7,699 nucleotides of DNA, from assembly GCA_913020705.1 (NCBI GenBank), contig CAJWBY010000188.1, forward strand, positions 1-7,699, given 5' to 3'. The DNA comes from an uncultured Colwellia sp. Lineage in GTDB: Bacteria; Pseudomonadota; Gammaproteobacteria; Enterobacterales; Alteromonadaceae. Each line of letters starts with the position of its first letter. Positions within the stretch are counted from its first letter, which is position 1. Below, piece after piece: positions 1 through 7,699 of this stretch. The notes beneath the pieces were generated by a model. That model was not told where the DNA came from. It worked only from the letters and a program-made list of their open reading frames with translations, and ran no database searches. The translations under genes and the position numbers were made by a program.

Positions 1-60
1 GTCTTGAAAACCGTTGAGGGTTTATCCCCTCCCAGGGTTCGAATCCCTGCTTCTCCGCCA
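1..60 (+). tRNA. tRNA-Ser(UGA), 3' part only
   Basis: The 5' half lies outside the window. Visible parts are the anticodon loop CTTGAAA at 3-9 (anticodon TGA at 5-7), a long class II variable arm with stem GAGGG/CCCTC (16-20 and 27-31), the T arm CAGGG-TTCGAAT-CCCTG (33-49), the acceptor 3' strand CTTCTCC (50-56), discriminator G57 and encoded CCA (58-60). The long variable arm and the anticodon identify serine. Encoded CCA plus the terminator just behind it point to a bacterial, probably gammaproteobacterial, chromosome. The 3' end of tRNA-Ser is a frequent target of tyrosine integrases, which fits the accessory DNA that follows. No second copy of this 3' end was found in the window. Confidence 0.95.
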
Positions 61-72
61 TAGATATATACT

Positions 73-98
73 AAGCCTCTGTTTACAGAGGCTTTTTT
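73..98 (+). terminator. Rho-independent terminator of the tRNA-Ser gene
   Basis: A perfect 9-bp stem (AAGCCTCTG at 73-81, CAGAGGCTT at 86-94) with loop TTTA, ending in a run of six T (93-98). It starts 12 bases after the CCA end, so it ends the tRNA transcript. Confidence 0.9.
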
Positions 99-339
99 AT
101 GTAATATACAAAACAAGACCGCCAGCAAGACCGTCAATTGTTTTTACTACCCCCCTCAATTAAAATCAATCCGCTTAAACCTATTTAGATCACAACCCTT
201 TACAATACACATACAAACTTAGCCTCATAAAATACATATCGGCTCTACTCTGTTTAGATTCCTATTAATGTATATAGCAGGTTCAATGTGTTTTTTATGA
301 GGCCAACAAACGTAGTGCGTTAGCTTTCCCTTAGTAGTA
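99..339. other. Gene-free stretch between the tRNA terminator and ardA
   Basis: No ORF of usable length was seen on either strand. It contains a short direct repeat, CAAGACCG at 114-121 and 126-133 (12-bp period), close to the tRNA end. Short direct repeats here could be integrase arm sites or the scar of a lost element, but no integrase gene is visible. It also contains the long inverted repeat at 222-303, listed separately. Confidence 0.6.
222..303. repeat. 11-bp perfect inverted repeat bounding 82 bp
   Basis: GCCTCATAAAA at 222-232 is the exact reverse complement of TTTTATGAGGC at 293-303. Inside it, ATACAT (232-237) and ATGTAT (268-273) can also pair. The hexamer ACAAAC lies just outside both ends (213-218 and 306-311). 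It could be a small non-autonomous mobile element (MITE-like) or an RNA hairpin at the 3' end of the ardA transcript, since ardA ends at 340 on the minus strand. There is no adjacent T-run typical of a terminator, so the function is open. Confidence 0.5.
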
Positions 340-849
340 TTAAAATCCTGTAGCAGTATAAGTCTCCCCATCATAACTGAACTCAGTAATATCACCGCTG
401 TACTCTAAATCTCTAGCAAAAGCCTCAAAATCGAAATACCTTTGTATATTTTCAGGTAATGTATTTAAAATACCACTGTCTTCAATATAGCTGTAAGCAT
501 AATAAAGAGATGAACCAGCACTAATACTTCCATCACTATTTAGATCGTAGATTGCTTCCTGAGGGTCTTGACCTAAGTTGTCACATCTAAAGTAAAGTTC
601 TGTTTGATCTGGTTTATCCATTATTTCAATCTCATTAAACCAAGCTTGTAATGTACTTTGGTCTATATTGCAGGCATTAAAAAGTTCTGGTAATTCACCT
701 TCTATATAATCTATTTCATACTCTTCTACAGGCAAGCCACAAGGATCAACATGCTTCGATGATTTTGTTTTGTACTCATCGTATGAAGAAAAGTAAAAAC
801 CTGCCACAGAGCTGTTGTAAGGGTTTGCATAAAGCTGTTCATTTATCAT
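340..849 (-). CDS. ardA: ArdA-family antirestriction protein
   Basis: 169 aa, very rich in Asp and Glu, as expected for ArdA. Proteins of this family mimic about 42 bp of bent DNA and block type I restriction-modification enzymes in the cytoplasm, which protects incoming mobile DNA. The best family signature is at residues 131-154, LPENIQRYFD followed by FEAFARDLEYSGDI, matching the conserved ArdA C-terminal block. The N-terminal NPYNSSVAGFYF and the central ELFNA...WF segments resemble the ArdA subgroup that begins with a PYN-x-x-x-x-GFYF stretch. Length is within the usual ArdA range. The start is set by AAAAGGAA (857-864), whose GGA lies 8 bases from the ATG. A leader ORF and a terminator-like hairpin lie just upstream and may regulate it. 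It is the main sign that this is a mobile or accessory region. Recognition is from sequence pattern only. Confidence 0.82.
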   Translation of the reverse strand: MINEQLYANPYNSSVAGFYFSSYDEYKTKSSKHVDPCGLPVEEYEIDYIEGELPELFNACNIDQSTLQAWFNEIEIMDKPDQTELYFRCDNLGQDPQEAIYDLNSDGSISAGSSLYYAYSYIEDSGILNTLPENIQRYFDFEAFARDLEYSGDITEFSYDGETYTATGF

Positions 850-875
850 GGTTCTATTCCTTTTATTTCAGGCAT

Positions 876-914
876 AAAAAAACCTTAGTCTTCTTAAAAG
901 AAGTGCCTAAGGTT
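876..914 (-). terminator. Terminator-like hairpin in the ardA leader (possible attenuator)
   Basis: On the minus strand, AACCTTAG (914-907) pairs with CTAAGGTT (888-881). An inner stem CTTCT/AGAAG (903-899 with 894-890) closes on a four-base loop. The hairpin runs directly into a T-run (minus strand, 882-876). This is a good Rho-independent terminator pointing toward ardA and ending about 27 bases before the ardA start codon. It would stop transcription before ardA unless overridden, so it is either an attenuator or the terminator of an upstream transcript. Confidence 0.7.
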
Positions 915-981
915 CAGTTAGAGTTATTTGGTATATTTTCCTTACATAAAACGCTCTTCGCTCTAAGAAAAAGAGAACCAT
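907..981 (-). CDS. Possible 24-aa leader peptide upstream of ardA
   Basis: An ATG-started ORF on the minus strand, beginning MVLFFLERRAF and ending TLTEP. Its TAG stop (909-907) lies inside the 5' arm of the terminator-like hairpin. A weak Shine-Dalgarno (AGAGGG) lies about 12 bases upstream, farther than ideal. If translated, a ribosome reaching the stop would cover the left arm and disfavour the terminator, a layout like known leader-peptide attenuators. There is no homology evidence; the ORF may be chance. Confidence 0.3.
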   Translation of the reverse strand: MVLFFLERRAFYVRKIYQITLTEP

Positions 982-1071
982 GAAATGATTTAACCCTCTA
1001 GCCATTAAGTAAAGTTTTTTGCTCCTCTAAGCATAGTCTGTTGAAGTTAAGTGATGGCACTTAGCATTGTA

Positions 1072-1134
1072 CATAATATGAATTATACGGCGAAGCGAAC
1101 AGTGAGGCTCTTTACACTGCGTATAATTATTATG
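1072..1134. repeat. Large imperfect palindrome, attC-like or MITE-like
   Basis: Arms pair in three blocks: CATAAT (1072-1077) with ATTATG (1129-1134), AATTATACG (1081-1089) with CGTATAATT (1120-1128), and CAGTG (1100-1104) with CACTG (1115-1119). The left arm carries unpaired bases on one side only: ATG (1078-1080) and ten bases at 1090-1099. The terminal loop is ten bases. One-sided bulges in a roughly 60-bp palindrome are the hallmark of integron attC sites. GTTATGT (1134-1140) at the right end is close to, but not an exact match of, the GTTRRRY core, and no matching RYYYAAC box was found on the left. A MITE or intergenic hairpin repeat is an equal alternative. Confidence 0.45.
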
Positions 1135-1579
1135 TTATGTATCATGCGGTTAATAATAAAACCAAATAAGACAAATTACTGCCAGTGTAGAGAAAAGGAA
1201 AACCAAAAATAACGGAAAATAACAGTGTTTAAGCGCCCATATCAGCATAGAGCATAAGCAGCGCTAAAACCTTAAGATCGACTGCTAAAACAGCCTCCTT
1301 GCATAATTAAATAGCGAACGATTAGCATTTGTGATCGACTGTTTAAAAGAGTGCCAAAGGTAGCTTTTAAGCAGAGAGAACAGTTGCTGGTACGTTCGGC
1401 ACTTGTGTAAGCAGCATTTGCGTACCAGTGGTAGCAATTGCTGTGGTGTAATGCTGTGTAAGGATAGCGATAGCTTTCCGCTCTCCTGTGTGCAGTGTGT
1501 AAGGTGGGGCATCCATTGCATTTGTGTAATTAGGCAAGCCTAGGGGGGCATCCTTCCATTCAGGTGTGTAGAAATAGAA

Positions 1580-1620
1580 TACTGGAGTCATACTCAAATT
1601 ATATATTTCCGAAAAACCTG
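1580..1620. repeat. Dispersed repeat, copy 1 (about 41 bp)
   Basis: Shares with 4118-4159 three ordered blocks: TACTG, then TCATACTCAAATTATA (1588-1603, 16 of 16 identical), then GAAAAACCTG (1611-1620, 10 of 10 identical), with an unlike 7-base spacer before the last block. This copy lies beyond the 3' end of the lipoprotein operon. Confidence 0.75.
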
Positions 1621-1697
1621 ATCCAATAATTCTAATATATGCAGCAGCCATACCTTTTTTACCCCCCCACAACAAACTATAAGTATTGTTCCCTGTA

Positions 1698-2102
1698 TCA
1701 ATCAGCCTTCTTTATAGGATCAAGCGCAACATGTACTTGATTGGGTTTGATATCAAATAAACCGCCTGTTGCAGCATCGATCAAATTCCCAAGCCCTAGC
1801 GAGAATGCATCGAGAAACCACCAAAGAAACCGCGCTTCTCGCCTCAATGCTACAACTTCTGTTTTATAACCTTCTTTGGAAAATTCCAGAGAATGCGAAC
1901 TGTTCTTTTGAAGAGATACATTTGTAGGTGTTTTATATTTTAACCCAGTAACAGAGTCAATAACCTGAACATTTGAAGGGTCACTAGATAACTTAACATC
2001 CTGACTTAACCCCCCAAAGACAGTGCCACAGCCATTCAAAACTAATGTCATAACTGTTACGGGGAACAAAGCAGGCAAACGAATACGTCCTGATAAATTC
2101 AT
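1698..2102 (-). CDS. PEGA-like outer-membrane or periplasmic lipoprotein
   Basis: 134 aa. The N-terminus is basic then hydrophobic and ends in lipobox L22-N-G-C25, so it should be cleaved before Cys25 and lipidated. Residues 26-82 resemble PEGA-type beta domains of small lipoproteins: a GTVFGG start, a SSDPSNVQVIDSVTG hairpin, then a TPTNVSL and KEGYKTEVV pattern. A short hydrophobic segment around 92-113 (LWWFLDAFSLGLGNLIDAATGG) followed by a KPNQVHVAL strand is typical of this group, whose role is unknown. Its ATG overlaps the stop of the upstream gene by one base (TAATG). AAGGAG (2105-2110) is only 2 bases from the ATG, so translation probably depends on coupling with the upstream gene. 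No clear terminator follows it. Lipoprotein status is clear; the PEGA call is by pattern. Confidence 0.75.
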   Translation of the reverse strand: MNLSGRIRLPALFPVTVMTLVLNGCGTVFGGLSQDVKLSSDPSNVQVIDSVTGLKYKTPTNVSLQKNSSHSLEFSKEGYKTEVVALRREARFLWWFLDAFSLGLGNLIDAATGGLFDIKPNQVHVALDPIKKAD

Positions 2103-2608
2103 TACTCCTTAGCACTCGTAAAAAAAATTATAAAACTCTTAGCTACCTCGTCATGAACTTCATAAAAACTTCCACCAAAAACTCCGGATGCAATGCTCCC
2201 GTCGATACTGCAACTGGCAACTTCTTTCCTTGATGAGTCAATAACCTTCCATGCAGTTTTCATACTCCCCTTTCCTGCACCAAAACCAACAAAGTAACGT
2301 AACGATCGACTACCCTCATTGTATTCTTTAATTTCACCCACAATTGCTGGTACATTTTTTCTTTCAGTCGAAACAACTGTAATACCAGCATTTATCAGAG
2401 AGTTAGACAATGCTGCTTTAAAATTACCAATATCTTCATCGGACACATGCGTGACGGTATTATCCAAAAGAGTGAGTGATACTGTATTTGGCTGGGAATC
2501 CAAAGGCTTCAATACATTCAATTTTGACGAAGCACACCCGACTAGTAATGAAGTCATAACTAGTAAGGGGATAAATAACAGTCTTTTTTGGATTTTTTCT
2601 TTGTTCAT
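2102..2608 (-). CDS. DUF4410-type lipoprotein
   Basis: 168 aa. It has a basic N-terminus, a hydrophobic core and lipobox L22-V-G-C25, so it is predicted to be lipidated at Cys25. Ser26 is not the +2 Asp retention signal (Ala follows Cys), so outer-membrane sorting is likely. The mature part matches the DUF4410 pattern: a strand with VSLTLLDNTV, an amphipathic FKAALSNSLINAGI helix, then VGEIKEYNEGSRSLRYFVGFG, a Gly-rich turn, and a C-terminal EVHDEVAKSFIIFF helix. Family function is unknown; members are envelope proteins that resemble the fold of other small lipoproteins. Upstream of the start, AAAGG (2621-2625) is 12 bases away, a weak site. It forms a tightly coupled pair with the next lipoprotein, which suggests the two act together in the envelope. 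Confidence 0.75.
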   Translation of the reverse strand: MNKEKIQKRLLFIPLLVMTSLLVGCASSKLNVLKPLDSQPNTVSLTLLDNTVTHVSDEDIGNFKAALSNSLINAGITVVSTERKNVPAIVGEIKEYNEGSRSLRYFVGFGAGKGSMKTAWKVIDSSRKEVASCSIDGSIASGVFGGSFYEVHDEVAKSFIIFFTSAKE

Positions 2609-3096
2609 TAGTAATGAGCGCCTTTAGTGGAAAAACATCAGTGTAAATCAGTATTATCTATATTTTATATAGCTGTTCATTTGTAGGTGCCCGCACTGGC
2701 GATGCTCCCAATTAAAAACACTAGGCAAAAGACAGTTAAAGTTTGTTTTATTATTTGTTTGATTTTTATTAATAATACCGACAGAGCCTATTTTACTTGG
2801 TTCGACTAGAAATAAATATCAGTCAATACTTACATTGCACATGGTAACTAGATGCTCAGCATCTCTGCAACAACAAACCTAGAGCTGCCTGTAATTTAGA
2901 AGCTGGAACAAAAAATATCGATAAAATACGCGACAGATGCCTAGAGTGTAAGCATCTGCCGACTACCATTGTTACTTGTAACCTTATAATATACCCGCAT
3001 TAAAGCAGGGTGAGCAAATGAAGTAAAATACACCTAGAAGAAGTAATATCAATAAATAACAATGCACTAGCAACGTTGAAAAAACAGGAGTTTTTC
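2609..3096. other. Divergent intergenic region between the lipoprotein operon and the exported protein gene
   Basis: No gene seen. It should hold promoters for both directions. Two palindromes share the GATGC/GCATC core: GATGCT-C-AGCATC (2851-2863) and CAGATGC (2934-2940) with GCATCTG (2952-2958), loop 11 bases. They could pair alternatively or act as protein-binding sites. A TATAAT box lies at 2985-2990. Confidence 0.55.
2985..2990 (+). promoter_or_regulatory. Candidate -10 box for the exported protein gene
   Basis: A perfect TATAAT about 107 bases before the ATG at 3097. No good -35 is found at 16-18 bases upstream, so an activator may be required or the match may be chance. Confidence 0.35.
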
Positions 3097-4110
3097 ATGA
3101 ATAAAGTAGTTTTTAGTTTAGCAGTAATAGCACTTGCAAGCACGAATACCAATGCTGATAACCGTCAGCATGATAGGAAAGCACATGAAAAATACCAGCC
3201 TTCATGGTCTGGTAAAAGAGCACTTCATGGTAATAAAGGAGGACATACTGATTTAGAGACTAGAATAACCGCTTTAGAAGAAAAACTACAAACACTGGGA
3301 GATAGTGCATCAGCTGACCTTGAGTCACCAGAGATTCTTATCGAAGTACCCGCTAATACTTTAGGCGATTTTGAAAAAGTGAAGGTTACTTATACAGACA
3401 ATCGTGGTTTATTTAAAGTTGCCTCAAATGCGTTACAAAGACTTACTGGGTTTAATGGATTTAATGGGGTAAATGTGTTGCTTTCCCCTGTTTCAGAAGT
3501 GTTGTATGAGTCAGAGCTGGAAGTTGTGCGAGAATCTTCAATAATAGTACCATTTGGTGGAGAATATGTGGTTCGGGCATATGCCACCGATCTTGCAGGC
3601 AATAGCTCTACCGCAACTAGCACTATTAGCTCGGATGTTGGAATTAGCGTGGGACAATACAAATTAGATGAACCATTAAATGAGATTATTTCTGGTTCTG
3701 GTTGTCAGCTTCAATATGCTGATCGCTTAATAAAGGCTGAAACAATTCATGTATCTGGTTCGTTTAAGCCTAATTTGGATGAACAATGCGCATATTACAA
3801 CATTAACGAGCCAGAAAATGCTGTAGCATGTATTAGCGTTGGTCTTGCTCTTCAAGAATACAACGGTCTGGGTGGCTCTGTTGTTGGGGCAATAACGTCA
3901 ATTGAAGATACAGAGTTTTCCGCCAATACTGGTGGAACATCTGGAAGTGGTGGTGGAGATAACTATAAGGCCTTTACACAAATGGACGTTGAATTTTTCA
4001 ACACAACACCTGCTACAGTTGCTATTGATATGACCCTTAAGTGTGAAAGTACTGCATACGGCACGACAACATTCGGCCCTTACCAGTTGCATGGAACATT
4101 AGAACAATAA
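3097..4110 (+). CDS. Exported protein with coiled coil and Ig-like domain, function unknown
   Basis: 337 aa from the ATG at 3097. AGGAG (3086-3090), 6 bases upstream, selects this start over an in-frame TTG at 3076. Residues 1-20 form a Sec signal peptide with predicted cleavage after NTNA-20. Residues 21-50 are basic and His-rich. A short coiled-coil segment follows (TDLETRITALEEKLQTL, 51-67). About 75-180 resembles a bacterial Ig-like domain, with the typical GGEYVVRAYATDLAGN strand-turn at 154-169. The C-terminal part (about 187-337) has four Cys (203, 231, 245, 316), possibly two disulfides, and a Gly/Ser-rich linker at 279-287. It is probably secreted or periplasmic. I do not recognise the C-terminal domain. 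It is divergent from the lipoprotein operon and shares a repeat with that operon's 3' end. Confidence 0.8.
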   Translation: MNKVVFSLAVIALASTNTNADNRQHDRKAHEKYQPSWSGKRALHGNKGGHTDLETRITALEEKLQTLGDSASADLESPEILIEVPANTLGDFEKVKVTYTDNRGLFKVASNALQRLTGFNGFNGVNVLLSPVSEVLYESELEVVRESSIIVPFGGEYVVRAYATDLAGNSSTATSTISSDVGISVGQYKLDEPLNEIISGSGCQLQYADRLIKAETIHVSGSFKPNLDEQCAYYNINEPENAVACISVGLALQEYNGLGGSVVGAITSIEDTEFSANTGGTSGSGGGDNYKAFTQMDVEFFNTTPATVAIDMTLKCESTAYGTTTFGPYQLHGTLEQ

Positions 4111-4117
4111 CTAGATT

Positions 4118-4159
4118 TACTGCACTCATACTCAAATTATAAAAAAGTAGAAAAACCTG
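4118..4159. repeat. Dispersed repeat, copy 2 (about 42 bp)
   Basis: Matches 1580-1620 in order and orientation: TACTG (4118-4122), TCATACTCAAATTATA (4126-4141) and GAAAAACCTG (4150-4159). The spacer before the last block is 8 bases here and unlike copy 1. It begins 8 bases after the stop of the exported-protein gene. Confidence 0.75.
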
Positions 4160-4170
4160 CAAACATCTTT

Positions 4171-4216
4171 TAAAGGTTAAGCTAGATACTCATGAACCAA
4201 GCTAGTTTAACCTTTA
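4171..4216. repeat. 15-bp hairpin downstream of the exported protein gene
   Basis: TAAAGGTTAAGCTAG (4171-4185) pairs with CTAGTTTAACCTTTA (4202-4216), with one G-T wobble and a 16-base loop. No T-run follows on either strand, so it is not a classical intrinsic terminator. It may protect the 3' end of the mRNA. GCTAGATA is repeated at 4181-4188 and 4218-4225. Confidence 0.6.
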
Positions 4217-4618
4217 GGCTAGATATAGTAATTTATTGGATCTTTCGAGTAGTTAGGCTTTAGTAATAGATATTTGAGTAGTTCTCAAAACTTCTCCCAA
4301 TAGCTTTTACATTAGCTTCTTTTTCTTAGTTGATATAAGTCTGTAGACCTTGAGTTTACAGGTGCTTGAGATACTTCTACAGTAGTTCTGGAGAAGTCCG
4401 TGTTTTTGTCTGGTCTTTTTGCTGGGTTTATTGATAGTGGATAGGGTGGGTTTAGTATTTATAAAAAGAATTAACGACTCTACCTTCTGAAAATCAGTAA
4501 TCGACCTATTGCCGCAGTTGATTATTTTTTTGTTAGGTTTGGTCGCAATAAATATAAACCGTCTCAATTTTTAGCCTCTTTTTTGTTCTACCTGTTCTAC
4601 TGTATAACCTAGCCTGAA
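4217..4618. other. Gene-poor stretch with terminator-like hairpins
   Basis: No confident gene. A plus-strand hairpin at 4373-4397 (ACTTCT/AGAAGT outer, CAG/CTG inner, one mismatch) is followed by a T-rich tract. A second, at 4498-4531, is listed separately. A minus-strand ORF of 86 codons (4567 to 4307, TTG start, AGAGG about 7 bases upstream) is lysine- and serine-rich with no recognisable domain and probably does not encode a protein. Plus-strand frames are full of stops. Confidence 0.5.
4498..4531 (+). terminator. Terminator-like hairpin with T7 tail
   Basis: TAATCGAC (4498-4505) pairs with GTTGATTA (4517-4524), with one wobble and an 11-base loop. Seven T follow (4525-4531). It is oriented to stop plus-strand transcription coming from the exported-protein side, although that gene ends almost 400 bases earlier. 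Confidence 0.4.
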
Positions 4619-5440
4619 CTATTTAAGTGATTCTACAGCGGTATCAGGTAAGTCTATTTCAGAAAAATTTTGCAAAACCTCTAAAAATTTATCGCCATAC
4701 AATTCCAGTTTTTTTTCACCCACTCCAGAGATATAACTCATTTGTTTTAAGTCTGTCGGTTTTTCCTCAATCATCGCCATTAATGTGGCATCATGAAAAA
4801 TAACAAAAGGCGGGACATCTTGTTCATCAGCAAGTTCTCTGCGTTTTGCACGTAAAGCATCCCACAATAAAGTATCTTTTCCTGCCCCTGCCGCTCTTTT
4901 TTCTTTTAGTTTCCCCTCATCTAACGAAAGGTTCTCTCCCTCATCCGATACTTCTATAGGATGAGCATCAGTAGCAAAGCATTGAGTTTTTTCTGTAGAT
5001 TCAGATAATTGTTGTTCACACTGTTCTTCATATAATTCCTCAGATTTAGTAAGTCGAGGAAGGATTGTAGGATAAGCGGTGCTGAATTGATTAACCAAAC
5101 CTAACAGCTTGTCTTTTTCATCTTTAACTAATCCTGCGTAGTAATTACGTTCAGATAATACATGGAAACCTAATTTTTCTCTGTCTGCGAAGGATTTAAG
5201 TTCAGCATGTAATTTAGCTTCTTGATACTCGAGTAAGCTTTGATCTAAGTCTGCATTTTTACCTGAAATTGTTAAAGGTACTGTTTTAATAGGCTGATTC
5301 ATATCCAATATCGATTTTCTTACTTGATATGTAAGGTATAGAGCATGAATCCAGTTTCCTATAAAGACTACAGCAACTAAAGATACTGCTAGCACAGGGT
5401 TGAAAATGGCTATGATTAAAAAGATTAAGACTAAAATCAT
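4619..5440 (-). CDS. Membrane-anchored HRDC-domain protein
   Basis: 273 aa. Residues 1-37 are strongly hydrophobic, enough for one long or two short membrane helices, and then RK begins a cytoplasmic portion. Residues 62-90 are helical and charged, and 130-185 form an acidic, probably disordered linker. Residues about 189-256 match the HRDC (helicase and RNase D C-terminal) domain: LLWDALRAKRRELADEQDVP, then PFVIFHDATL, then ISGVGEKKLELYGDKFLEVL, very like the tail of bacterial RecQ. HRDC domains bind DNA or mediate protein contacts. Here no helicase or nuclease domain is present, so the protein looks like a nucleic-acid-binding domain tethered to the membrane. The ATG has no visible Shine-Dalgarno, and an in-frame TGA lies 5 codons upstream. 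The C-terminal domain call is strong; the function is not known. Confidence 0.82.
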   Translation of the reverse strand: MILVLIFLIIAIFNPVLAVSLVAVVFIGNWIHALYLTYQVRKSILDMNQPIKTVPLTISGKNADLDQSLLEYQEAKLHAELKSFADREKLGFHVLSERNYYAGLVKDEKDKLLGLVNQFSTAYPTILPRLTKSEELYEEQCEQQLSESTEKTQCFATDAHPIEVSDEGENLSLDEGKLKEKRAAGAGKDTLLWDALRAKRRELADEQDVPPFVIFHDATLMAMIEEKPTDLKQMSYISGVGEKKLELYGDKFLEVLQNFSEIDLPDTAVESLK

Positions 5441-5484
5441 GATATTTTTTATGGTTCATTGGTTGATTCCAAAAACCGAAATGT

Positions 5485-5521
5485 GAAGTTTGAGGGTCTC
5501 TTCCCTCTAACTTCATTTTTG
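5485..5521. repeat. Palindromic hairpin repeat, copy 1
   Basis: GAAGTT-T-GAGGG (5485-5496) pairs with CCCTC-T-AACTTC (5503-5514) around a TCTCTT loop. The tail ATTTTTG makes it look like a plus-strand terminator, although no plus-strand gene precedes it. Read on the minus strand, it shares a 19-base start with the hairpin at 5574-5609 with 2 differences (CAAAAATGAAG then wTAGAGrG). It lies in the leader of the HRDC gene. Confidence 0.65.
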
Positions 5522-5573
5522 TTACGCTTTTATTCTCATTAATTAAATAAGTCATGGTTTGTACGCCAACAGG

Positions 5574-5609
5574 AGATAGAGAGTCACACACTCTCTATCT
5601 TCATTTTTG
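5574..5609. repeat. Palindromic hairpin repeat, copy 2
   Basis: A perfect 11-bp stem AGATAGAGAGT (5574-5584) with ACTCTCTATCT (5590-5600) and loop CACAC. The tail CTTCATTTTTG (5599-5609) is identical to 5511-5521 of copy 1. It is the last element that looks bacterial before the archaeal-type genes begin. Confidence 0.65.
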
Positions 5610-5638
5610 CAGATTATATGATTAAATCGACGTATTGA

Positions 5639-5758
5639 CTATATCTTGTATTCTTTATCGCACTGAACACATCTAACTTTAACGCCATCAGAATCAAGAC
5701 GTTTGAACTTCTTTGAACCACAATTTGTACAAATTGGGCACGCACGTGCGGACTTCAC
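5639..5758 (-). CDS. Small zinc-ribbon protein
   Basis: 39 aa from a GTG start. An in-frame TAA two codons upstream excludes a longer form, and there is no ATG in frame. It has two zinc knuckles: CPICTNC at residues 7-13, of which CTNCGS is the typical ribbon knuckle, and CVQC at 30-33. Between them lies KKFKRLDSDGVKVR, a classical beta-hairpin of zinc-ribbon proteins. It probably binds one Zn and may contact nucleic acid or protein. It begins 30 bases after the stop of the aSelBL gene on the same strand, so the two are likely co-transcribed. No Shine-Dalgarno is evident, in keeping with an archaeal source. The cysteine pattern is clear; whether the GTG start is right, or the ORF is the remains of a longer protein, is uncertain. 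Confidence 0.65.
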   Translation of the reverse strand: MKSARACPICTNCGSKKFKRLDSDGVKVRCVQCDKEYKI

Positions 5759-5788
5759 AAATTATATTTCTTTAAGCCAAATTTGAAG

Positions 5789-6754
5789 TTAATTGATTTT
5801 ACCACTACCGATTATTCTTACAGTAGTAGATTCTGGCTTTATGAAAAGGCATATGTCATTTTTCTTACAGATAATTGGTTTTTCTAAAGTTAACTTGACT
5901 GGAGATATAGAGGAAAATTTTGCAGCCTTTATTTGAAGCCCAACGCTAATGAGACACATCTGATTCACAGAAATTCCTCCCTTGTAGAATGGTGATTGTT
6001 CGAAGTTAACCTCAATCTCAGATTTTACTAGGAGAGATTCATCAGAAGTAATGATATCGCCTCTCCCAACTTCATCAGGTTTTATTCCTTTCAATGATAA
6101 TCCAACTCTTGCTGGACAATTTGCTAGCTTAATGTCATCATCATGCATCTGAATAGATTTTATCATAACTTCAGATCCTGATGGTAAATGTTTTAGATTA
6201 TCATATTGGTTTACTGTTCCTTGTAATACTTTACCCAATACAACAGTGCCAACACCTTTTACATCAAAACAATGGTCTATTACAATTTGTGCATCTCCAT
6301 TGTTTGAAACAGGTGAAAATTTCGTTAGTTCCTGTTTAATATTAGGTGAATCGACTTTCTTATAATTGGCCAAAACAGTTCCTTTGATCATGGAATTAAG
6401 CCGGTTTTCATCTACTTCGTATGAATGACTAATTATACCATCTTTTTTTCCTAGCATATCCAATGCAATAATTTGTTCTCCAACATACTTGTCAAGCGAT
6501 GCAATATAGAAAATTACATACTCTGCAATGTTTATTGCTTGTAACAGAGGTTGAATCTTTTCTGGGAATCCATTTGGAATAACCCATGTTCTAATAACAT
6601 CAGACTCCTTTTTATCATAAAGTGTAAGATCTGTAGTTGTACCTTTTTTGCCAAAATCATTTGCAATTGTCTGTTCTCCAAGAACAACAAAATTGATCGA
6701 GTTCATAATAATGCACGTATTTGCTTCACAGATTGTATTTTTGATAAACTCCAT
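5789..6754 (-). CDS. Archaeal SelB-like protein (aSelBL), degenerate EF-Tu-type GTPase
   Basis: 321 aa. It resembles the aSelBL family, archaeal relatives of the selenocysteine elongation factor SelB that occur in methanogens and Thaumarchaeota, lack the SelB C-terminal mRNA-binding domain and often have a damaged GTPase domain. Residues 20-145 follow the EF-Tu G-domain layout (AEYVIFYIASLDKYVGEQ, then IIALDMLGKKDGII), but the P-loop GHVDHGKS/T is replaced by VLGEQTIANDFGKKG and no NKxD is seen. Domain II is about 155-235: HCFDVKGVGTVVLGKVLQGT, IKSIQMHDD, and VGRGDII. Domain III is about 236-321. Family members usually start near NFVVLG, so Met17 (6706) may be the true start. The ATG at 6754 was kept because the TATA-like box at 6802-6809 suits it. 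The zinc ribbon follows in the same direction. It is believed to bind the ribosome or aminoacyl-tRNA, but its role is unknown. Confidence 0.85.
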   Translation of the reverse strand: MEFIKNTICEANTCIIMNSINFVVLGEQTIANDFGKKGTTTDLTLYDKKESDVIRTWVIPNGFPEKIQPLLQAINIAEYVIFYIASLDKYVGEQIIALDMLGKKDGIISHSYEVDENRLNSMIKGTVLANYKKVDSPNIKQELTKFSPVSNNGDAQIVIDHCFDVKGVGTVVLGKVLQGTVNQYDNLKHLPSGSEVMIKSIQMHDDDIKLANCPARVGLSLKGIKPDEVGRGDIITSDESLLVKSEIEVNFEQSPFYKGGISVNQMCLISVGLQIKAAKFSSISPVKLTLEKPIICKKNDICLFIKPESTTVRIIGSGKIN

Positions 6755-6801
6755 TTGTAAGTTTAGTTTCTGTACTAATTGATTAGCCGATCATGATTAT
6801 T

Positions 6802-6809
6802 TTTTTATA
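6802..6809 (-). promoter_or_regulatory. AT-rich TATA-like box between aSelBL and the small membrane ORF
   Basis: Minus strand TATAAAAA lies about 50 bases before the aSelBL ATG, giving a predicted short leader. On the plus strand the same AT-rich block (6796-6809) is centred near 26 bases before the ATG at 6833, the spacing expected for leaderless archaeal transcripts. One element could serve both divergent genes. Based on spacing and composition only. Confidence 0.4.
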
Positions 6810-6832
6810 GTCGTAATTTATCCACCTAATTA

Positions 6833-6910
6833 ATGGGAATTAATAGAAAGGGAGCTGCAATAGCAGTTGCTATAATAGCCTTCATAATCTGTATTGGTCT
6901 AGCCGGTTGA
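6833..6910 (+). CDS. Possible 25-aa membrane peptide
   Basis: An ATG-to-TGA ORF starting MGINRKG and followed by an unbroken hydrophobic run (AAIAVAIIAFIICIGLAG) long enough for one membrane helix with the basic end inside. It has no Shine-Dalgarno, but an AT-rich TATA-like block lies about 26 bases upstream, as in leaderless archaeal genes. It diverges from aSelBL and converges on the hydrolase gene. It could instead be the N-terminus of a longer protein cut by the TGA; reading through adds 21 codons before the next stop. Too short for homology by eye. Confidence 0.4.
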   Translation: MGINRKGAAIAVAIIAFIICIGLAG

Positions 6911-6933
6911 TACCATAATTGTAATTATTTGTT

Positions 6934-6957
6934 AGCCAAGGCCAAAATTGCTTGGCT
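6934..6957. terminator. Inverted repeat between convergent genes, possible terminator
   Basis: AGCCAAG (6934-6940) pairs with CTTGGCT (6951-6957) around a 10-base loop. TTTT follows on the plus strand, and it starts 4 bases beyond the hydrolase stop on the minus strand. The position between the ends of two convergent genes suggests a shared termination site. Confidence 0.4.
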
Positions 6958-6961
6958 GATT

Positions 6962-7699
6962 TTATGGAAATGACCTAAGGACAGCAGCATAACTTGCAAA
7001 GCGATGATTTTTCGGTTTTACCATTGTTTGAGTGTATTTTGATATTGTCTTTCCATGTGCACCCATGTAGCCAATTGGAGTATCTACCCAATTCCAATCA
7101 TCTACTAAACTGAGTACATCATCGTATGGGCTGTAATAGTTTCTAATTTTTGTTGTAACAATTTTTTGTGTGGCAGAACCATTTCTTGGACTTAGCGCGT
7201 TGCTAGGAATCGAACCTCCAAAAAAATAAACTGCCTCCAAGATTCCACTATTTTTGGCGTTTCTTGCAAGATTTTTTATCGTACTCTGAATTACATGTGC
7301 GCCAAGTGAATGTCCCATTAGACGAATCTTTGTACCTGGACTTTTACGCTTAAAGTCAGTAACAAATCGTGCCAAGTTTCTTCCGTTCTTGTTTGCTATG
7401 ATTACACCAATATGCAATCTCATCAGATACAGTGCACCTGCGGTGTTTGAATCATAACTATATCCTATTACAGGATATTTGTAACCAAGATGCGCTAATC
7501 TTCTTTTTGCAATTACAAATTTTGTCAGTGCACCAGATGTATTGTTTCTTAGCCCATGAATCATTATAGTAATCTCCTTTGAGCCGATTAATGCATCAAA
7601 ATCTGTCTTTGGGTACAAGCGATATGGTTCATGTTTTATCGTTCGACCTGAATAAAGATCATAAAATCCTCTGGTAGATATTCGAGGAAAAATCTTTTT
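6962..7699 (-). CDS. Alpha/beta hydrolase (lipase-like), 5' end missing
   Basis: 245 aa are visible and the frame stays open to the right edge, so the true start is outside the window. A TTG at 7618 is an internal codon, not the start, because in-frame coding continues upstream (STRGFYDLYSGRTIKHEPYR). Residue numbers here count from the edge. The oxyanion segment is TIMIHGLRNN (45-54). The nucleophile elbow is GHSLGAH with Ser131. Likely acid and base are in NYYSPYDDVL and KNHRFASY near the C-terminus, giving a complete Ser-Asp-His set. The pattern resembles lipase or DUF900-like hydrolases; substrate unknown. It is AT-rich like aSelBL and of the archaeal type, by my recognition of its style. 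It is followed by an inverted repeat that may terminate it. Confidence 0.78.
   Translation of the reverse strand, partial: KKIFPRISTRGFYDLYSGRTIKHEPYRLYPKTDFDALIGSKEITIMIHGLRNNTSGALTKFVIAKRRLAHLGYKYPVIGYSYDSNTAGALYLMRLHIGVIIANKNGRNLARFVTDFKRKSPGTKIRLMGHSLGAHVIQSTIKNLARNAKNSGILEAVYFFGGSIPSNALSPRNGSATQKIVTTKIRNYYSPYDDVLSLVDDWNWVDTPIGYMGAHGKTISKYTQTMVKPKNHRFASYAAVLRSFP

Follow-up and report, generated by a model that had tools for sequence, protein, structure and literature searches.

The aSelBL proteins are archaeal SelB-like factors in which, according to their description, a disrupted GTPase domain is a family feature (PMC3037878). Chimeric contigs from metagenome or single-cell (MDA) assemblies unite two unrelated genomes through an abrupt switch, with a join that interrupts a gene beside a repeat. 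Archaeal intergenic small RNAs are short, strongly structured and located between genes, with a promoter-like box about 30 bases upstream. The window, i.e., the whole stretch of 7,699 nucleotides analysed here (Table 1), can be compared with each of these systems. Its aSelBL-like protein shares with the family the EF-Tu domain 2, a similarity to part of SelB, the lack of a GTPase-domain match and the thaumarchaeal distribution (PMC3037878). As in chimeric contigs, the window appears to pass abruptly from one genome to an unrelated one, within a gene and at a repeat edge. The two tandem units following this edge, called A and B, resemble archaeal intergenic small RNAs in all the features listed above, whereas a conserved 16-base 5' stem-loop, a second hairpin differing by lineage and the absence of an Rfam family at the gathering score set them apart. 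The contig is most likely an assembly (or amplification) chimera, in which DNA of a Methylococcales-like bacterium akin to methane oxidisers, covering 1 to about 5426, would be artificially joined to that of a deep-sea, ammonia-oxidising archaeon of Marine Group I, covering about 5427 to 7699.

Table 1. Features of the 7,699-nucleotide window, with positions counted from its first base
Feature	Positions	Strand	Basis or remark
tRNA gene, 3' part, truncated by contig end	1..60	+	85% match to unannotated DNA on a Legionella plasmid
Intrinsic-terminator-like hairpin and T-tail, bacterial side	73..94	+	
ArdA-like antirestriction protein	340..849	-	PF07275, E 2.4e-10, 41.7 bits (cut-off 27); PHROG 2059
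PEGA-like protein, lipobox by eye	1698..2102	-	PEGA 18.4 bits, below cut-off 20.8; PHROG 6823
DUF4410 protein, Methylococcales-like, lipobox by eye	2102..2608	-	PF14366, E 8.6e-12
337-residue ORF, signal-like start	3097..4110	+	No Pfam match in the scanned part, 3106-4110
HRDC-domain gene, bacterial, 5' end lost at join	4619..5426	-	PF00570, E 2.7e-21, residues 192-256
Most likely bacterial-to-archaeal join	5415..5430	.	Outer bracket 4870-5427
Archaeal unit A, small-RNA-like: conserved box, small stem-loop, hairpin 5487-5516, T-run	5427..5521	+	Alignment, fold
Archaeal unit B, small-RNA-like: upstream box, 5' stem-loop from about 5554, hairpin 5572-5602, T-run	5523..5611	+	Alignment, hairpin z -5.0
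39-residue zinc ribbon, GTG start	5639..5758	-	Gene also in close relatives
aSelBL-like protein	5789..6754	-	EF-Tu domain 2; 53 archaeal loci
Alpha/beta hydrolase, open at contig end	6962..7699	-	DUF726 and DUF900 above cut-off; DNA match to relatives

Judging from its DNA matches, gene order and composition, the right half is that of a Marine Group I (Nitrosopumilaceae) archaeon. The stretch 5639-7699 is matched over its full length at 77-91% by four Marine Group I loci (L002, L043, L006, and L005) and partially by others, the closest DNA match of the right part reaching 90.6-92.2%. The zinc ribbon, aSelBL and hydrolase genes keep their order in close Marine Group I genomes, and the tetranucleotide usage of the pieces 5501-7500 and 5639-7638 is typical of this group. 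Both the GTG-initiated zinc ribbon and the hydrolase listed on this side by the initial annotation were found, the latter being of the DUF726/DUF900 type. The aSelBL protein has 4149 protein matches, the best 120 of which are 82-97% identical, and the organism named among the matches listed is Ca. Nitrosopelagicus. A search of 84,980 species genomes, reaching close relatives only, returned 53 aSelBL loci (best 92%), all archaeal by title (52 of a thaumarchaeal group and one 'uncultured archaeon'), in agreement with the initial view of an archaeal family. Most relatives listed carry a 305-residue form starting at 6706. The EF-Tu-like domain 2 scores 38.7 bits with PF03144 (cut-off 30.3), the SelB similarity is partial (TIGR00475, 66 bits over profile positions 175-272 of 581, below the cut-off of 242.25) and no GTPase domain of Pfam matches at E 0.01. 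On these features, the protein is an ordinary member of its family, with nothing unusual observed.

We read the left half (1 to about 5426) as that of a Methylococcales-like bacterium, a reading carried by the HRDC and DUF4410 proteins. The search with the HRDC protein returned 30 proteins including the query, two of them named, from a Methylococcales MAG and a Methylococcaceae MAG; the 29 proteins other than the query cover just 23-37% of it. The longest contig recorded for this protein has 7699 bases, so that the window is probably an entire contig. For DUF4410, nine proteins including the query were obtained, among which seven relatives are 64-80% identical, including one named as Methylococcales (68%), while a further one, named as Solirubrobacteraceae, reaches 43%. 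The cluster to which this protein belongs has four members on seven contigs, the longest of 43,648 bases. ArdA has one weak plasmid match, and the hydrolase of the right half was compared as DNA alone; best-hit taxonomy of the HRDC, DUF4410 and aSelBL proteins, the check proposed at the outset, leaves the two origins standing. In the viral_contigs collection, no relative of HRDC or ArdA was found and DUF4410 has a single 23-residue match. Of the tRNA followed by a terminator that had been placed at the left end, the terminator-like hairpin is confirmed, whereas the tRNA is reduced to a 3' fragment, which we take to be tRNA-Ser. ARAGORN detects no complete tRNA in the window. The fragment has no match in E. 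coli, and plasmid and phage DNA searches with the window gave nothing beyond it. A 24-base direct repeat (92%) is also present in the bacterial half at 1576-1603 and 4118-4141, the two copies being about 2.5 kb apart.

Comparison of the tetranucleotides of both sides, likewise suggested initially, separates them: every 2-kb piece starting from 1 to 4001 exceeds all 115 archaeal control pieces (115/115) in its distance from Marine Group I, while the right side is typical. The HRDC Pfam model finds nothing in 12 archaeal genomes versus 8 of 14 controls, and the HRDC protein has no match in 31 genomes of the archaeal genus, with at most nine candidates scored per genome and without a positive control. 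The idea that the left side might be an archaeal mobile element is rejected in view of its composition, the lack of a match in these 31 genus genomes and the result of the HRDC model (0/12).

The initial annotation put the boundary between both origins at 5610-5639, just behind a hairpin (5574-5609) regarded as bacterial. It is true that DNA similarity to most close relatives stops sharply at 5639, that the hairpin with its T-tail scores as terminator-like and that the composition of 5427-5638 is neutral. However, archaeal matches extend about 180 bases farther left, to 5427, across two repeat units, and the hairpin lies within them. When 1-5638 was compared with 250 genomes of the archaeal family, at most two candidates being scored per genome, 12 matches in five genomes were obtained. 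All but one are located at 5427-5479 or 5518-5611, the exception being a match of 29 bases between G048 and 3434-3462 (E 9.6e-4). The two former segments, the second including the hairpin, match dispersed repeats of the four nearest archaeal genomes at 74-94%. The stretch 5523-5608 is 88% identical to G068 and 74-77% to G002, G004, and G007, and 5427-5479 is 92% identical to both G068 and G002. The hairpin and its T-run are conserved, and the core of unit B is found family-wide. A boundary at 5610-5639 with a bacterial terminator is therefore barely conceivable: the archaeal genome matches contradict both the boundary and the terminator, the latter being contradicted by the family-wide core as well, and the idea could be saved only if every one of these genomes were contaminated. 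The genes around the archaeal copies look archaeal, with ORFs that are presumably a proteasome subunit, a TruD-like and a Pdx-like protein. From 1 to 5426, no match was found in 31 genomes of the archaeal genus (nine candidates each, without a positive control).

The 5639 edge corresponds to the stop codon of the zinc ribbon gene, beyond which the intergenic DNA is diverged or rearranged. Within about 35 bases of the zinc ribbon, the neighbouring gene in eight of nine relatives (L002, L004, L005, L006, L043, L044, L147, and L148) is one that we take to be ilvC, while in L001 a methyltransferase-like gene occupies this place (gap at 7096-8106 of that locus). The interval beyond the zinc ribbon is thus strain-variable, and in the window (5427-5638) it holds the small-RNA-like units.

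Since the archaeal sequence matches begin at 5427, the join moves into the HRDC frame. This open frame reaches an ATG at 5440, inside archaeal DNA, and its extension beyond 5426 is probably archaeal DNA translated by chance. The alignments put the switch at 5427 or farther left, within the HRDC frame, where a multicopy archaeal repeat has its edge. The sequence is ACAAGACT in the five archaeal copies compared and TTAAGACT in the window; both differ before the common AAGACT (AC versus TT), which places the switch at the repeat edge. It most likely occurs at about 5415-5430, a range within which we infer the exact base. The outer bracket is wider because the demonstrably bacterial portion of the frame is confined to the HRDC domain proper. 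Composition is of no help in locating the join, as it is neutral both in 4871-5426 (-0.1) and in the matched archaeal stretch 5427-5638 (-0.2), left pieces scoring -1.3 (sd 1.7) and archaeal pieces 3.4 (sd 1.7).

Two origins on one contig, bacterial on the left and archaeal on the right, were already recognised by the initial annotation, and its simplest explanation, a chimeric contig, stands. It is preferred because the left DNA has no match in 31 genomes of the archaeal genus and is of distinct composition, and because the join interrupts a gene, borders a multicopy repeat and falls in a strain-variable gap. The alternative is a real cross-domain junction, in which a tRNA-linked bacterial island with ArdA would have inserted next to small-RNA repeats in the genome of a Marine Group I archaeon. 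The variable gap behind the zinc ribbon would suit such an event, as would a left part that starts in a tRNA fragment and carries ArdA like mobile islands. In addition, another contig of the protein database carries a second member of the HRDC protein cluster; should that contig independently show an identical join, the case for an artefact would be weakened. Yet the left sequence occurs in none of the 31 genus genomes (a search without a positive control), its composition is still non-archaeal, no integrase is found among the Pfam-scanned ORFs of the window, and the join falls inside the HRDC gene rather than between genes. A genuine transfer is therefore improbable. A search of viral_contigs with a pattern of 29 bases from the bacterial flank of the join returned no match.

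In the favoured chimera, the false join would lie at the 5' edge of unit A, a short archaeal repeat with two or three copies per carrying genome, offering the assembler a place to step between genomes. The bacterial part would stop within the 5' end of the HRDC gene, and the archaeal part would begin with the tandem units A and B facing the zinc ribbon and aSelBL genes. The cross-domain junction, most likely an artefact, should not be cited as gene transfer. Once it is discounted, a candidate RNA family remains in marine ammonia-oxidising archaea, testable in existing cultures and RNA data.

This candidate consists of the two tandem units at 5427-5611, which lie on the + strand in convergent orientation to the zinc ribbon gene. 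We lean towards reading them as an undescribed small-RNA family of Nitrosopumilaceae. Its independent genes of about 55-65 nt would have a conserved 5' stem-loop, with the sequence UUGGUUUGCACGCCAA in the majority of B copies, binding one shared partner, either a protein or a conserved target, and then a lineage-specific long hairpin ending and protecting the transcript. We infer that both units are transcribed. Rfam at the gathering score gives no match in the window, a tRNA only in a set of seven loci and none in a set of ten loci, apart from weak sub-threshold matches. The literature searched, including passages of PMC5069720, holds no described counterpart; subscription literature lies outside this search, and absence from print is not implied.

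The 25-base box of unit A, with zero or one mismatch, occurs in eight copies in three of 250 genomes (G002, G004, and G068). A box with two mismatches in G143 was excluded because the reversed-pattern control gave seven matches in six genomes. In three close Marine Group I genomes (L058 1317-1598, L073 2034-2250, and L074 4494-4712), unit A forms tandem arrays, whose two or three copies share one conserved box but differ in their hairpins. The five-copy model of unit B is strong in G002, G004, G007, and G068, reaches E 3.4e-5 in G008 and is weak elsewhere.

Reading the weak matches to unit B revealed a 16-base core. Its exact form is present at 117 sites in 101 of the 250 family genomes and absent from the other 149, versus 0/250 for the reversed control. 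A 17-base form is found in 59 of 400 genomes of the class, all of them in the family, and in none of the 179 genomes newly sampled for it. In the genomes sampled, the core is thus confined to Nitrosopumilaceae. In viral_contigs, the 17-base form has two matches (L145, within a 100-residue ORF, and L146), neither with a long uninterrupted second stem, and both are read as chance. In the window, whose unit B carries a variant of the core, and in G068, the C of the loop is replaced by T and further changes affect the ends; a shorter pattern allowing the loop T was found in two of 16 chosen genomes.

Among the 117 core copies, 41 distinct contexts were read, in 40 of which the core lies between ORFs of at least 70 residues, L127 being flagged within an ORF. 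The 52 bases located 3' of the core have a folding z below -2 in 41 of 43 cases (median -5.4), many of the 43 being close relatives and hence not independent. No stable hairpin follows the core in L129 and L130. The 40 hairpins, including that of the unstable L130, present 29 distinct arm pairs; their pairing is guaranteed by the choice of pairs, and the variety alone is informative. In the five-copy alignment of unit B, 2 of 14 predicted pairs are changed on both sides, and a wider alignment, which includes antisense and truncated matches and in which pairs are uncounted, displays further hairpin changes. Upstream, conservation across 18 dereplicated regions is highest in an A/C-then-T box at about -36 to -26, the distance at which an archaeal promoter would be expected if the RNA started at the stem-loop. 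A T-run follows the hairpin in the clade of the window.

That units A and B might be mobile repeats (MITE-like or transposon ends) and not RNA genes, one of them being involved in the join, is compatible with their dispersed, multicopy and, in some genomes, tandem occurrence, and with flanking genes that differ between genomes. This origin is nevertheless unlikely, as many genomes share an unchanged 5' core, followed by a second hairpin that varies in sequence yet stays paired, the copies are few relative to the number of genomes carrying them, conservation upstream peaks at the promoter-like box, and the T-run stands behind the hairpin. In the small-RNA reading, the 5' loop would be the active part of an autonomous RNA, which the second hairpin would terminate and protect. 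Clade-specific duplicates such as unit A and the tandem arrays would bring new 5' loops and possibly new targets. In G068, two stretches (L057 193-590 and 1608-2112) located beside a unit B copy contain near-identical small ORFs, each preceded by a repeated upstream stretch.
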